Of a DNA stretch of 24,697 bases, positions 17,988 through 24,697 are shown piece after piece. This stretch comes from a virus. The position numbers and the translations under genes are program-made. Below the pieces are notes generated by a model. That model was not told the origin of the DNA, did no database searches, and worked only from the letters and a program-made list of their open reading frames with translations. The stretch covers positions 1-24,697 of IMG/VR virus record IMGVR_UViG_3300047409_000038; one strand, 5' to 3'. Position 1 is the first letter of the stretch; each line of letters opens with the position of its first letter.

Positions 17988-20900
17988 ATGGCTTTCGACA
18001 GTCTCCGTACCAAAATCCCGTGGATGAAGGATTTGTCCGACGACGAGATTTTGCTAAAGACGTCGGCAGCTACGGGCATGGACCCGAAGGAGATTGCCGA
18101 CTATTACGGGTACGACGCGCCCTCGTCGATGATGGGCAAGGAGTTGTCGGCTGGGTGGGAGAATTACAAGGCGGGCATGGGCCACATCGGTTCAGCGATG
18201 GGCATCCCCGGCGCGGCGGAATGGACTGCGAAAAAGAAAGCCAAGGCGGAAGCGCTGCAATCTCTGTCCACGGCCCCGCACTCGTTCGAGGAGATGAAGT
18301 TCGGCGACCCCGAGAAGGGAGCGCTGCCGTATGTCGGGCAACTCTTTGCAAGCTCAGCCCCGTACATGGCCGAAGCGGCGGGCTACACGCTCGCTGACGT
18401 GGCGACGGGTGGCGCGCTGACGCCTGCGATCCTCGCTCGCTACGCCCCCGCTGCTGCACGGCTTGGCGTCACCGTGCCCGAGTTCCTTGGCGGGCAGGGG
18501 GTCAGGGCCGGTGCCACGTTCGCCGAGCGGCGCGCTGCGCTCGCGGCGGCGGAAGAATCAGCCCCCGCCTTGGCCCGCACGGCCATGATCCCGGCAGTGA
18601 CCTACCCGTCCTCGCTGGGCGACGTGCTGGGCAACCAGCAGGAAGAGGCGGGTAAGTACAACCTGCCACGCGCGATGGCCGCAGCGTTGCCGTACTCGGC
18701 GCTTAACATCCTCGGGCTGGAGGGTGCGGTCACCAAGGGCGCACTCCCTCGGCTGGGCATCAAGAGTCTGGAAAAGAACATGGCGGGCCGCGCCGCGTCG
18801 GGTGTGCTCGCCACAGGTGCGTCGGAAGCGGTCAACGAGACTGGGCAGGAAGTGATGAACCAGTGGGGGCGGATGGGTGTGAATCCCAACGCCACGTTCA
18901 CTGATCCCGGTGCGCTTGAGCGGTACAAGGAGTCGGCCATCGGCGGCGCGATCCTCGGTGGCCTTCCCGGCTCACTGCATGCCTTTGGCGGTCATCGTGG
19001 ACCGCTCGACACCAAGCAACCTGCTGACCTGACCAAGCGCCTGCCCGACCAAGATTACGCGGAGCAGTTCGGGTCGCACTTCGCACCCGAGGGGTTGGGT
19101 CTGCGCACGCCGGAGGAACACGCGGCCTACACGCAGAAGCAGGCCGAAGACGACCTCATGGCACGGCTCAATCCGGGCGCTGCGCCTGCCGCGCCTGTGT
19201 ATGGGACCGATGCCGTCGGCGAGATGGAACGTGCGGCTGGGGTCGCTCCCGGTACCTTTGCGCCGGTCCCTGCTGCTGCCAAGGTCAAGCCCAAGGCCGC
19301 AGCCGACGCCGCCACGACTGCTGCCGCCCCTGCCACCGCTGCTGCGACGGTCGACCCGGTGCTCCAGCAGGTCGAAGCCACGCGGGCAGAAATTCTCGAC
19401 GCGCACGCGCGGTTGTTCCCCGAGAAGCACGCAGCGCGAGCGGACAGACCCTACCTGACCCATCAGGAGCTTGTCCGGTGGACAGGCAACCCGAAGACGG
19501 TGGATGAGGCCGTCGCCACGCTCAAGTCGAAAATTGTTGGTGCGCTTACGCAGCCGGGCAAGGGCAAGATGGCCCGGAGAGCCAACGCGGAGGACATGCT
19601 CCGGCTGCACGACGAGCTTCTCGGCCTGCCGGAAGATCAGCGCCTGTCGCTGGATGACTGGGAAGCCAACCTCAAGGCCGAGAGCGCGCTCGCCGCTGCC
19701 AAGGTCGGGGATGCAGGCAAGTTGCCCGGTGCAGTCACGACGGTTGAGCCAAAGACGCTTGAACAGGAAGCTGCGTTGGCGAAACTCCGTGAGCGGGTGG
19801 CGGCAGGCGAAGCACCGTTTATCGACTACGAAACTCAGGGGGATGGTTCCATCACTGTCTACGCCAAGGGGATCGGGTCGGTTGACAGCAAGTGGAAGGT
19901 CAAGCTCGACCTGACACCAGAAGAACAAAGGGCGGCGAAGAAAGCTATCGCGCTGGATAACCTCGCCGAAACAGCGGAAGAGAAAGCTGAAGCGAAGCAA
20001 GCAATGCAGGATGCGGTTGGGGCTGCGGCTGCGCGGCATGCGGGTGTCGCTCCTACTGCAACCGCCGCACCGACGTCCACCGCACCTGTGCCGGGGGTGT
20101 GGCACGTCGTAGAACGCATGGGGAAGTTCTACATAGGCAACGCCAGCAAAGATGGCAGAAGCAGGGAGGAGCAGGGAGACTTCCCCACACGTCAGGCAGC
20201 GCAGGCATGGGCAGATAAACTCAACGCTGACATAACGCCGAAGGGTGCCACCACTACCGAAGTGGAAACCCCGCCTGCGGCACCGGCAACTCCCACCGAG
20301 GAAGAGCGCGTCGCGAAGCGGGAGCAGCTTACTACCGCCATCAGGGGTGGCTTGACCGACAAGGAGTGGGAAGCGCTCCGGCTCACACGCGGCAAGGAGG
20401 AGAACCTCGCGGGGGGCGTGGAGAAGACCGCCGAGGAGTTGGCGAAGGAGCAGGCGGCAGACGAGACGGCAGCGTACCGGACGGAAGACGACGAGGGCGA
20501 TGGCGGGGGAGCGCCCGAGGAACAGCGCGCCGATACGATACGCGGCACCGCTGCCAAGCTGGGTCTTGCGCCATCGACGTTCCAAGGTGTGCTGAAACGG
20601 GCGCAGGAAAAGGTCGCGGCCCTCGCCGCCCAACATGGAATTACCGAGGACGACGCCAACGAACTGCTGGGCTTGCAGTCGAGCTACGACGTTGCGGCGG
20701 TCGACTTCGCATCTACGGGCTACTCGGGAAAGGAGCGGGTTGCCACAGTTGACGACCGCCCGGAGTTGACGGGAGAGGCGTACGACACGACGCATGGCGA
20801 AGCGGAAGCCGCAGCCACCGAAGGCGAGGGTGAAGGTGAAGAAGTCGCCGTCGAAGGCAAGAAGAAAGAGGTGCAGCCCGAGAACAAGTGGGTCGACGCG

Positions 20901-23900
20901 CAGGGCCAGTCCATCTCGCACGCTGACGTGCAGGATGCGGCGGAAGATTACGGTAACCACGAGATGGGGTACGCGGCAGGCGATCCTGCGTGGGGGCAGT
21001 TGTCACCCAAGCTCCAGCTACAGTGGGTCCGTGGTTACCTCGCGGCACACACCATGTACCCGAAGACGAAGCAGGCACCGGAGCGGCGCAAGTTCACCGA
21101 CGTCGTGCGTACGGCCATGGCGGAAGAACAGGAGCAACCCAATGAAGCAGACACCGATACAGCAGGCGCTGACGAAGGGGCAGGCGCAGACCGTCAAGCA
21201 GAAGAAGGCGCAGATGACGCCGGAAGAACTGAAGGCGGCGAACAAGAAGTGGGCGGCGTTTCAGGAACAGATGAGAAAGCAGATACGGGACGAGTACCAC
21301 CTGCCGCAACCGAAGGTGAAAAGCCTGCCGACGCTGAAAAAGCTGGGGGAGGAACCGAAACCGCCCCAGTCGTAAAGCGCAAGCGGAAGGTCGCCGGGGG
21401 CAAGGCGGAAGCCGTATCCACGCCCGAGCCGGAACCGGAGATACCCGAGACGACGGGCGAGCGTGCGCTGCGCAAGTGGAACGAAGCCAAGGCCATCGCG
21501 CCGGAGCTTGGCAACTGGGGCGACCTGTCGCATCAGGCACGGAAAATATTCACCGCTGCGGAGGAGAAGGACCAGAAGCTCGCCGATGCGATGAAGCTGA
21601 AACAGGAGGAAGGGAAGCTCCGCGATCAGCACGGCAACATCGTGACGCCGCGTGATGACACGAAAAAAGAAGAGAAGCCTGCCAAGAAGCCGACGAACAA
21701 CTTCGAGCGGGCGAAGCAGATGGAAGCACTCGCCGACGAGAACGATGCGAAGGGCAGGCCCGTAGTCGCACGGCTGCTGCGCGAACGCGCTGCGGAAATC
21801 CGTACGGAACCCGAACCCGAGGAAGGCGCGCCCAAGGAGCCGCCAGCCGAAGGTGGCAACATGCTGAGTGCCATCCGGGCTGAACCGGGCGTGGACATGG
21901 TACGGATGGCGAAGCTGTTGGGGCCGCAACTCTATGGCAATCTCAACGACATCGGCCCCGTCACCATCAAGGAGTTGTTCCAGAACGCATTCGACGCCAT
22001 CAAGGATGCGATCAAGCTGGGCAACCAAAGAAGTGGCGAGATTTCAGTCAGCCTTGACGAGAACGCACGCACGATCACGTTGACCGACGACGGCGCTGGC
22101 ATGACGCCGGAGATCATCAACAAGGCGTTCCTGACGCTGGCCGGGACGAAGAAGGAAACCGACCGCTCATCGGGTGGCCTCGGCATTGCCAAGATGCTGT
22201 TCCTGTTTGGCAACGAATCGCTGTCGCTGAAGACGGTGCGCAACGGTGTCGAAAGCACGCTGAATACGTCCGGTACCCAGTTGATGGAGTCGTTTTCCGA
22301 TCCGACGAAAGCACCGGACATCCATACAAAGAAAACCACCGACCCATCGGGCACGACGATAACAGTCAAGGTGCCCAAGACTTTCTATAACGAGGCGACC
22401 GACACCACCGACGAGATCAAGTTTCCTCCTCGGTATCGGGCCAGAGAAATACTGGAATCAAGTCCGCTGTTTGAGCCAATCAGTGTCAAGCTTAACGGGG
22501 ATTTGATAGACATTGGCAACAACTTCCCCGCAGATGAGTGGACGGTGCTGGCCGTGCCGAAGTTCGCATGGGGCAAGGTCCGTGTGTTGGTGAAGCCGAT
22601 GGAATATCCGGGCTTTGAGAACGTGACCATGCTGTCGAACGGCATCGTTCAGTTCTATGCCAAGATTGGCAAAGAACCCGGTGATCCGTTTTCTGCTCCA
22701 GCGCCCTACAAGTTCTTTTTCAACATCGAGCCGGATGTAAAAGCCGACGCCCCGAACTACCCGATTGCGCTCAACCGGAAAGGGTTCTCGCGTTCCGCCG
22801 AGAGTGACTTCAAGACGTTGCTGAACTACCTCGCCGCCATGTACGCCAACACGGTGAGCGAGCAAAGTTCGCAGTCGTTTGGGGCGCTATCGCTATTTTC
22901 GGAGGATGGCAAAACTGAAAAAGAAGTCGACCTCAACGTACCCAAGGCGGCAGCGGGCACTACGCTGAACATCAACAAGGGCGACAAGGTCGAGTTGCGC
23001 GATGGACGGATGTACGTCAACAACCGGGCGATGCCGGAGTTGACGAAGGAAGACCTGAAAGCAATGAAGCACGACCCCGGACAATTCCGGGTCAGTCAGG
23101 ACTTGATCGACCCCAACAAGTTGATCGTCCACGACAACGTGCTGCTCAATGACAAGCCCTATCTGGACGAGGCGCGGGCTGCACTCGGGGAAGACGCAGT
23201 CAACGGTTATCTGCTTGGCTTCGCCCGTGCGTTCAAGCGCATACGCGATGCTGCGGTGAAACTAGGCGGTGCGAAGTATGCCGACCTCGGCAGCGTGCCG
23301 GTCGGGGTAAGCATCGACACCAAGTATTACGGCGTCAACACCGTGGTTCCGTTCAAAGCCATGATGTTGAATCCAACTGTGTTCAAGAGCGACAACATCG
23401 ACGACATGCCGATAGCGTTCGCTGGCACCATGGTCCATGAAATAGCGCACCACCCCGAGCGCAATCACAGCGAGACAGGGTTCATCCCCGAGGTGCAGCG
23501 GATGCTTGTTACCTTGTCGCTGTCGGACGATGTGCAACGGGCAGTGATGGACCTGCAACTCATCGCCAAGGATTATGGTCACGTATTCGATTATTTCGTC
23601 AAGGAGTCGAACAGTGGAAATCTCAAGAATCGTGGCATCCGCTTGGAAGGTGGGGAAGAACGCGTCGGGGGCGAAGGCGATGCTGGAGGGACTGCTGGGA
23701 CCAGCGGAAACCGAGGGAATGCGGAAGACAGCACCGGACTACGTCAATCTACTGGAGCGAGCAATCAAAACCGCGCCCAAGGCCAAGGACGCACAGGAGC
23801 ACCTGCGGCTAATGCGGGAAGGACGCTAGGAGCGGGACAGAGTTTCGCGTCGCGCAAACACCTGAGCAAAGTCCACGAGTTTGCACAAAGGCATGGCCTT

Positions 23901-24697
23901 GGGTTCATGATTACCGAGGACATCGCCGACCTCGCCGCTGCGAATGGCTTGGGGGAAGTGCGCGACTACGTCGAAGCCACCAAGCAGCGGGAAGGCGCGC
24001 GCCGGGAGTTCGAGGCTCCGGTAGCCAAGATCGCCGAGTTGTACGACCAACTGCCGGAACGCGAGCGCGGCACGGGCGCTGGCAGCGTCAACAAGTTCTT
24101 GCACGACGCGACTACCACTGGCAGTACCACTGGCATCAACGCGCTGTCGGCGACGGGGCAGCAACTGGTCAAGGCTGTGTTCCAGCATGGCAAGGACGTA
24201 CTCGCGCTCAAGAAGAAACTCATCGAGGACGAGGTCGGCGGGGAGTACAGCAAGCGCATCGCCCAAGAAACGGACGCTGCCAAGAAAGCCGAACTGGTCA
24301 AGGAGCGTGACCTAGTCCTGAGAAAGTTCAGCAAGCTGTGGACGAAGGGTCCGTCGGATACCTACGCGCCGCTCAAGCGGTTCGGCGACTATGTAGTGTC
24401 GGCCAAGTCCAAGGAGTATGTGCAGCATGAGGAGGGCAAGACCGACGCGGACAGGAAGTGGATCAGCGCCAACGAGTCAGACCCGGCTCACGTCCAGATG
24501 CACTTCGCCGACACCATGGCCGAGGCCGAGGCACTGGAAGCGCAGATCAAGCAGCAGTACGACTTCAAGGGTGGCAAGACCTACGCCGCCGCGCGCGAGG
24601 CCGACATCCACAACAGCCGCGACCTGTTCCGTGCCTTCCCGGTATTGCAGACGCGGCTCGAAGCCGAGTACCCGATGCTCGACGGCAAGCCATCGCC
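17988..24697 (+). CDS. Giant polyvalent/ejection protein with GHKL ATPase and zinc metallopeptidase (3' end outside window)
   Basis: The frame from ATG 17988 has no stop to the window end: at least 2,236 codons. It follows two ejection-type genes, so it is probably packaged and injected with the DNA. Residues 1-330 are Ala/Gly-rich with hydrophobic helices and could form a channel. About 340-700 is Ala/Pro linker and charged helices. A small beta-beta-alpha unit begins at W705. A GHKL ATPase lies at about 1310-1480: N box E1329, N1333, D1336; G1 box DDGAGM (1367-1372); G2 box SSGGLGIAK (1394-1402). After a middle region comes a zincin: H1817-E-I-A-H1821-H-P-E-R-N-H1827. YAPLKRFGDYVV from 2126 resembles regions of other giant phage proteins. 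No lytic transglycosylase motif is seen. The ATG has no clear SD sequence, suggesting low expression. Two small genes are nested in its +1 frame. Confidence 0.85.
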   Translation, partial: MAFDSLRTKIPWMKDLSDDEILLKTSAATGMDPKEIADYYGYDAPSSMMGKELSAGWENYKAGMGHIGSAMGIPGAAEWTAKKKAKAEALQSLSTAPHSFEEMKFGDPEKGALPYVGQLFASSAPYMAEAAGYTLADVATGGALTPAILARYAPAAARLGVTVPEFLGGQGVRAGATFAERRAALAAAEESAPALARTAMIPAVTYPSSLGDVLGNQQEEAGKYNLPRAMAAALPYSALNILGLEGAVTKGALPRLGIKSLEKNMAGRAASGVLATGASEAVNETGQEVMNQWGRMGVNPNATFTDPGALERYKESAIGGAILGGLPGSLHAFGGHRGPLDTKQPADLTKRLPDQDYAEQFGSHFAPEGLGLRTPEEHAAYTQKQAEDDLMARLNPGAAPAAPVYGTDAVGEMERAAGVAPGTFAPVPAAAKVKPKAAADAATTAAAPATAAATVDPVLQQVEATRAEILDAHARLFPEKHAARADRPYLTHQELVRWTGNPKTVDEAVATLKSKIVGALTQPGKGKMARRANAEDMLRLHDELLGLPEDQRLSLDDWEANLKAESALAAAKVGDAGKLPGAVTTVEPKTLEQEAALAKLRERVAAGEAPFIDYETQGDGSITVYAKGIGSVDSKWKVKLDLTPEEQRAAKKAIALDNLAETAEEKAEAKQAMQDAVGAAAARHAGVAPTATAAPTSTAPVPGVWHVVERMGKFYIGNASKDGRSREEQGDFPTRQAAQAWADKLNADITPKGATTTEVETPPAAPATPTEEERVAKREQLTTAIRGGLTDKEWEALRLTRGKEENLAGGVEKTAEELAKEQAADETAAYRTEDDEGDGGGAPEEQRADTIRGTAAKLGLAPSTFQGVLKRAQEKVAALAAQHGITEDDANELLGLQSSYDVAAVDFASTGYSGKERVATVDDRPELTGEAYDTTHGEAEAAATEGEGEGEEVAVEGKKKEVQPENKWVDAQGQSISHADVQDAAEDYGNHEMGYAAGDPAWGQLSPKLQLQWVRGYLAAHTMYPKTKQAPERRKFTDVVRTAMAEEQEQPNEADTDTAGADEGAGADRQAEEGADDAGRTEGGEQEVGGVSGTDEKADTGRVPPAATEGEKPADAEKAGGGTETAPVVKRKRKVAGGKAEAVSTPEPEPEIPETTGERALRKWNEAKAIAPELGNWGDLSHQARKIFTAAEEKDQKLADAMKLKQEEGKLRDQHGNIVTPRDDTKKEEKPAKKPTNNFERAKQMEALADENDAKGRPVVARLLRERAAEIRTEPEPEEGAPKEPPAEGGNMLSAIRAEPGVDMVRMAKLLGPQLYGNLNDIGPVTIKELFQNAFDAIKDAIKLGNQRSGEISVSLDENARTITLTDDGAGMTPEIINKAFLTLAGTKKETDRSSGGLGIAKMLFLFGNESLSLKTVRNGVESTLNTSGTQLMESFSDPTKAPDIHTKKTTDPSGTTITVKVPKTFYNEATDTTDEIKFPPRYRAREILESSPLFEPISVKLNGDLIDIGNNFPADEWTVLAVPKFAWGKVRVLVKPMEYPGFENVTMLSNGIVQFYAKIGKEPGDPFSAPAPYKFFFNIEPDVKADAPNYPIALNRKGFSRSAESDFKTLLNYLAAMYANTVSEQSSQSFGALSLFSEDGKTEKEVDLNVPKAAAGTTLNINKGDKVELRDGRMYVNNRAMPELTKEDLKAMKHDPGQFRVSQDLIDPNKLIVHDNVLLNDKPYLDEARAALGEDAVNGYLLGFARAFKRIRDAAVKLGGAKYADLGSVPVGVSIDTKYYGVNTVVPFKAMMLNPTVFKSDNIDDMPIAFAGTMVHEIAHHPERNHSETGFIPEVQRMLVTLSLSDDVQRAVMDLQLIAKDYGHVFDYFVKESNSGNLKNRGIRLEGGEERVGGEGDAGGTAGTSGNRGNAEDSTGLRQSTGASNQNRAQGQGRTGAPAANAGRTLGAGQSFASRKHLSKVHEFAQRHGLGFMITEDIADLAAANGLGEVRDYVEATKQREGARREFEAPVAKIAELYDQLPERERGTGAGSVNKFLHDATTTGSTTGINALSATGQQLVKAVFQHGKDVLALKKKLIEDEVGGEYSKRIAQETDAAKKAELVKERDLVLRKFSKLWTKGPSDTYAPLKRFGDYVVSAKSKEYVQHEEGKTDADRKWISANESDPAHVQMHFADTMAEAEALEAQIKQQYDFKGGKTYAAAREADIHNSRDLFRAFPVLQTRLEAEYPMLDGKPS
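21130..21134 (+). promoter_or_regulatory. Ribosome site of nested gene 21142-21375
   Basis: AGGAG lies seven bases before ATG 21142, inside the giant gene. This ideal spacing is the main evidence for the start of the nested gene; the giant gene's own start has no comparable signal. Confidence 0.6.
21142..21375 (+). CDS. Small Lys/Gln-rich gene nested in the +1 frame of the giant gene
   Basis: This encodes a 77-residue protein (MKQTPIQQALTKGQAQTVKQ at the start, helical KKWAAFQEQMRKQIRDEYHL in the middle, Pro/Lys-rich end). AGGAG is seven bases before the ATG. By hand count about 64 of 77 codons end in G or C in this frame, against about 27 of 78 in the giant frame over the same bases, so the genome's codon bias follows the nested frame. 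In the giant frame the stretch (residues about 1052-1129) is low-complexity Gly/Ala/Glu/Asp linker. The frame upstream of 21142 is Arg/Ser-rich and looks non-coding. The function is unknown; a small basic helical partner of the giant protein or of nucleic acid is possible. Confidence 0.62.
   Translation: MKQTPIQQALTKGQAQTVKQKKAQMTPEELKAANKKWAAFQEQMRKQIRDEYHLPQPKVKSLPTLKKLGEEPKPPQS
23601..23606 (+). promoter_or_regulatory. Ribosome site of nested gene 23614-23829
   Basis: AAGGAG lies seven bases before GTG 23614. The hexamer and its spacing decide this start over the ATG at 23575, which has only AAGGA two bases away. Confidence 0.6.
23614..23829 (+). CDS. Second small gene nested in the +1 frame of the giant gene (GTG start)
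   Basis: This encodes a 71-residue protein, helical and mildly basic: V/MEISRIVASAWKVGKNASG, then AKAMLEGLLGPAETEGMRKT and a final DAQEHLRLMREGR. AAGGAG precedes the GTG by seven bases. By hand count about 50 of 71 codons end in G or C in this frame, against about 33 of 72 in the giant frame. The overlapped giant-frame residues (about 1876-1948) are Gly/Asn/Gln/Ser-rich linker just after the metallopeptidase motif. It has the same relative frame (+1) as the nested gene 2.2 kb upstream, but I see no clear similarity between the two proteins. The function is unknown. A chance frame remains possible, though less likely given the start signal and codon bias. Confidence 0.6.
   Translation: MEISRIVASAWKVGKNASGAKAMLEGLLGPAETEGMRKTAPDYVNLLERAIKTAPKAKDAQEHLRLMREGR

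Follow-up and report, generated by a model that had tools for sequence, protein, structure and literature searches.

A giant gene at the end of a virus fragment from environmental DNA contains a small open reading frame (ORF) in its +1 frame, which raises the question of whether this frame encodes a protein of its own or is a by-product of the sequence in which it is embedded. The window (the whole stretch of DNA that was analyzed, 24,697 nucleotides) is treated here as part of the genome of a large double-stranded DNA phage. Its major capsid protein is related to that of Rhizobium phage RHph_TM3_14A (43%) and, more distantly, to those of HMO-2011-type podoviruses. The giant ORF is the last gene seen of a virion-structure block, and the genes adjoining it have matches in families of portal/connector, major head, and internal virion proteins; its modular product is probably virion-associated. 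This protein combines a GHKL/HATPase domain with a visible HEIAH (HExxH) motif, yet no peptidase profile matched. Elsewhere in the window, positions 1067 to 1366 lie between the portal-like gene and the one that follows it and hold a putative coding frame with an internally repeated HTGHG-type peptide.

The evidence presented below suggests that positions 21142 to 21375 are an authentic gene for a small protein, which lies entirely within the giant gene in its +1 frame and is internally initiated, with both frames in use (probability about 0.88; Table 1). The encoded protein is MKQTPIQQALTKGQAQTVKQKKAQMTPEELKAANKKWAAFQEQMRKQIRDEYHLPQPKVKSLPTLKKLGEEPKPPQS. The sequence-only reading of this DNA had proposed that a real small gene is overprinted on low-complexity linker sequence, and a relative in a second genome, the Shine-Dalgarno (SD) sequence, and codon usage all bear this out. 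Likewise, the 77-codon ORF and its well-spaced AGGAG were located as described. The ORF lies entirely inside another ORF, in a different frame, with both frames open, which is the arrangement expected of overprinting.

Table 1. Positions of the nested genes, their start signals, and the surrounding features of the giant genes (window coordinates unless a record is named)
Feature	Position	Strand	Remarks
Nested gene 1	21142..21375	+	77 aa plus stop; ATG start; +1 to host ORF; net charge +9
SD sequence AGGAG of nested gene 1	21130..21134	+	7-nt spacer to ATG; AAGGAG at equal spacing in G004
Host-frame linker over nested gene 1	21141..21374	+	72% Gly/Ala/Asp/Val/Glu; low complexity
Nested gene 2	23614..23829	+	71 aa; starts with GTG; +1 to host; 65% identity with nested ORF L003:11760-11969
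SD sequence AAGGAG of nested gene 2	23601..23606	+	7-nt spacer to GTG
Host giant ORF	17988..24695	+	at least 2236 aa; continues past window end; modular
HATPase_c domain of host protein	21966..22379	+	residues 1327-1464; Pfam PF02518, E 8e-8; in module flanked by nested genes 1 and 2
C-terminal module of host protein	23856..24674	+	residues 1957-2229; begins just past nested gene 2; common to most related giant proteins
MPFKSKAQ small protein, +1 nested in giant structural-protein genes	L104:3001-3129 (elemoC); L105:1501-1632 (MW202828)		

Codon usage differed strongly between the two frames. The fraction of G- or C-ending codons (GC3) over nested gene 1 was 0.82 when read in the nested frame and 0.35 when read in that of the host, in close agreement with the 83% and 35% counted earlier by hand, while the host gene as a whole had a GC3 of about 73%. 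Outside the nested zone, host GC3 was about 0.73 to 0.75, and the dip tracked the borders of the nested ORF. When host codons were resampled synonymously, the expected GC3 was 0.67 ± 0.053 with a minimum of 0.46, and none of 20,000 resamplings was as low as observed, so that the earlier claim of a codon bias favoring the nested frame is upheld. The +1 frame remained open in 72.5% of these resamplings, and the openness of the ORF, which by itself was not significant, is therefore no evidence for a gene. The +1 frame is in fact already open upstream of the ATG, to position 20770.

The start region has features of a translation initiation site. The 45 nt around the start were among the 0.3% least structured of the giant gene (minimum free energy of −1.0 versus a mean of about −11 kcal/mol), and those around the start of nested gene 2 were among the 0.8% least structured. 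The start region of the copy in the relative G004 was not unusually unstructured, with 13 to 14% of positions equally open. Six of the eight nested starts examined were preceded by at least 5 SD bases (sought 4 to 11 nt before the start), compared with 77 of 1,769 (4.4%) other ATG or GTG codons inside these giant genes. The SD sequence and unstructured start are consistent with, but not proof of, internal initiation, in which translation would begin at the gene's own AGGAG/ATG on the mRNA of the giant gene.

G004 (IMG/VR 3300046517_001381), a virus whose capsid protein is 83% identical to that of the window and whose giant gene has its N-terminal part in common with it, encodes the nested protein at 61 to 63% identity (E 8.5e-24) within its own 2,666-codon giant ORF. 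The +1 offset, the linker location, and the 7-nt SD spacing are all as in the window (AGGAG-7-ATG in the window, AAGGAG-7-ATG in G004), and the host frame is open. Conservation sets in at the ATG, and the +1 frame just upstream diverges. A comparison of homologues in both frames had been suggested as a check, with disruption of the +1 frame, or conservation in the giant frame only, named as grounds for doubt; G004 keeps the +1 frame open, and conservation is not limited to the giant frame. G004 was the only relative with this protein in searches of viral contigs, named phages, and GTDB genomes and in a pattern search, the named phages and GTDB genomes yielding no homologue. The first viral-contig match (L002) was rejected, as it corresponds to the beginning of a capsid-like protein in which MTPEELKA recurs by chance, and the pattern RDEYHLPxxK otherwise matched only unrelated ORFs.

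Divergence between the two genomes was reduced over the nested zone. In a frame-free DNA alignment, 5 of 26 host fourfold-degenerate sites differed in this zone, compared with 51% of 351 elsewhere in the gene pair; as fourfold divergence is likewise low in the C-terminal module (about 0.18 to 0.29), this test alone is of moderate weight. The divergence was also simulated. With selection on the host frame only (omega_host of 0.1 to 0.3), 0 of 400 runs at each setting had as few nested changes as observed, and with neither frame selected, few changes coincided with the absence of a stop codon at a probability of 0.02. Simulations in which both frames were constrained fit the observed data. For this pair of sequences, rejection of the host-only model and the fit of dual constraint point to selection acting on the nested product.

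The host frame is likewise under selection across this zone. Fourfold-degenerate codons of the nested frame ended in G in 28 of 32 cases (88%) in the window and 44 of 59 in G004, compared with 38% gene-wide (p of about 1e-8 each), and the Gly/Ala/Asp/Val/Glu content of the host frame was higher than the nested protein alone would predict (P 5e-5), which together argue that both frames are used. When the reading of NNG codons is shifted back by one base, each codon takes the form GNN, a form that includes no stop and specifies only Val, Ala, Asp, Glu, or Gly. Because the third bases of the nested frame are mostly G, the host frame stays open as a linker rich in these five residues. The nested frame would thus set its own codon positions 1 and 2, and its G third bases would give the host an acidic, flexible, stop-free linker between modules. 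Codon usage further suggests that the nested frame is the older of the two and the linker a derived reading. Stronger constraint on the small gene than on its host, as proposed earlier, was not shown here: because both frames diverged equally from G004 (23 of 62 amino acids in each), no asymmetry can be claimed for nested gene 1, and the preference for G-ending fourfold codons shows that the host constrains the nested frame.

Three other explanations of the +1 frame were weighed, each of which we consider very improbable. An untranslated by-product of host amino acid composition, in which Gly, Glu, Ala, and Asp codons place G at host position 1 and hence at the ends of +1 codons, agrees with the GNN-rich linker and with the openness expected from resampling. 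It accounts for the high nested GC3 but not for the collapse of host GC3 to 0.35, and it leaves the SD sequence, the unstructured start, and the conserved G004 protein without a cause. Furthermore, other long +1 ORFs of the giant gene (19201 to 19458 and 19471 to 19914) show no host anomaly.

Programmed frameshifting out of the host frame, producing a truncated giant protein with a +1 tail, would benefit from the frame being open well upstream of the ATG. However, the upstream +1 frame is unlike that of G004, and the strong SD sequence at equal spacing in both genomes points to initiation; the chance that frameshifting is correct is accordingly slight. No more plausible is a dead relic, i.e., a small gene that once lay between two genes and now serves merely as a linker of the giant protein. 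The older codon usage of the nested frame and the position of both nested genes at module borders would agree with such a history, but the frame, start, and SD sequence have been kept in two diverged genomes, and the host-only model was rejected. An expressed gene overprinted on the linker is the reading that we favor.

The product of nested gene 1 is probably a small, basic, helical protein made along with the giant protein. Helices are predicted at residues 5 to 12, 18 to 24, and 27 to 52, followed by a Pro-rich tail, in a structure model of low confidence (pLDDT 69, pTM 0.34). The protein had no family match in Pfam, PHROG, NCBIfam, or PDB, and a weak similarity to complexin/synaphin (E 0.05 to 0.5) was dismissed as a resemblance between charged helices. 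Judged by position, its most likely role is that of a late accessory made with the giant virion-associated protein, perhaps for assembly or ejection, although the odds for this are well below even; a host-directed factor is also conceivable.

Nested gene 2 is situated at the end of a module in common with L003 (residues 1295 to 1960 align), and its counterpart L003:11760-11969 is nested at the equivalent place in another giant gene. Between the two, 28, 25, and 10 changes fell at successive host codon positions, with 24 amino acid differences in the nested frame versus 40 in the host frame. Here, the nested frame clearly dominates and evolves as coding sequence, with the host frame nearly free, so the proposed stronger constraint on the small gene does hold for nested gene 2. 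In the simulation of linker composition, the host excess was not significant for this gene (P 0.17). In L004, a +1 ORF (L004:11691-11969) occupies the position of nested gene 2, and its C-terminal half may resemble it; a profile search gave no support for homology. The L003 giant gene also has a second deep dip in host codon usage (L003:15755-16054), which lacks a matching +1 ORF.

Similar arrangements were observed in other giant genes, in related as well as unrelated phages. Among 29 scanned ORFs of 700 codons or more, +1 nested ORFs with a host codon-bias dip occurred ten times and +2 nested ORFs never; part of the ten are of low complexity and doubtful. Antisense ORFs flagged in nested zones seemed to be shadows of the +1 frame and were set aside. 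Nested gene 1 is flanked by the N-terminal part and the HATPase module, so that both nested genes of the window are at module borders, and the candidates in L079, L080, and L083 are likewise just upstream of the C-terminal module common to relatives. The strongest codon-usage reversal among the giants scanned was that of a 66-amino-acid +1 ORF, L081:4814-5014 (host −0.31, nested +0.32), which had no relative among the other records searched. Along with it, the best additional case was a nested ORF in L085 (MPFKSKAQAKKLF...), which matches phrog_1375 (E 3.8e-4), a profile that nested genes 1 and 2 do not match.

Flavobacterium phage elemoC and related isolates carry a relative of the L085 ORF (tblastn E 0.05, 50% identity over 40 residues), placed +1 within their 3,694-codon "structural protein" gene, and MW202828 has it as well. 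This MPFKSKAQ gene was annotated in none of the Flavobacterium phage records examined; its carriers include the elemovirus phages of Flavobacterium sp. BAL314, which have been isolated on a host. Between elemoC and MW202828, the changes at successive nested codon positions numbered 7, 6, and 17, and this distribution gives the nested frame a coding signature. About 400 nt upstream, elemoviruses carry a ten-codon second start (MPFKSKKLMK, L104:2605), perhaps a decayed copy.

Small genes nested in another frame of a phage gene are familiar from Rz/Rz1-type spanins. Nested protein 1 differs in that its 77 residues include no Cys and hence no Rz1-type lipobox, and in that its host gene is giant and modular. 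Overprinted viral gene pairs have likewise been described in which a same-strand nested gene and its host differ in codon usage and one product is of low complexity, and such a difference is a criterion for recognizing the novel reading (PMC8227390). In contrast to those pairs, which are from compact viruses, it is the nested frame that is genome-like here, so that the linker of the big gene would be the novel reading, and the virus is a large double-stranded DNA phage. The hepadnavirus envelope ORF also overlies, in another frame, a flexible spacer between modules of the polymerase gene (PMC8227390, PMC9093120, PMC5604429), and a short gene once located between two module genes has been proposed as a model (PMC8227390). 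However, hepadnaviruses are unrelated, and several unrelated small +1 genes occupy linkers of the giant gene family studied here. The host gene itself resembles those of polyvalent proteins in being huge and modular, with an HExxH-type motif, and in adjoining virion genes (Iyer et al. 2017, PMC5512222); the main text of that paper does not mention overlapping genes or alternative frames, its "nested" referring to a protein fold. The literature searched, of which coverage was incomplete, contained no description of giant phage genes that recurrently harbor small genes out of frame. Overprinting itself is known, and what seems undescribed is a variant in which the linkers of modular giant phage genes repeatedly accommodate unrelated small genes.

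We tentatively propose, at somewhat less than even odds, that giant modular phage genes recurrently house unrelated out-of-frame small genes in their intermodule linkers. These linkers would be shifted readings of older stand-alone genes captured when neighboring genes fused, G-ending codons would keep the reading stop-free and flexible, and the small genes would travel with the modules. As annotation normally assigns one frame to each stretch of DNA, nested genes of this kind are overlooked, and a recurrent class of phage proteins is probably absent from gene catalogues. A dip in host codon usage offers a simple genome-wide detector of nested genes in GC-rich phages. Should the pattern prove general, small late proteins would form a class concealed in the largest phage genes, and low-complexity linkers in giant virion proteins would in some cases exist because they are the out-of-frame reading of another gene.
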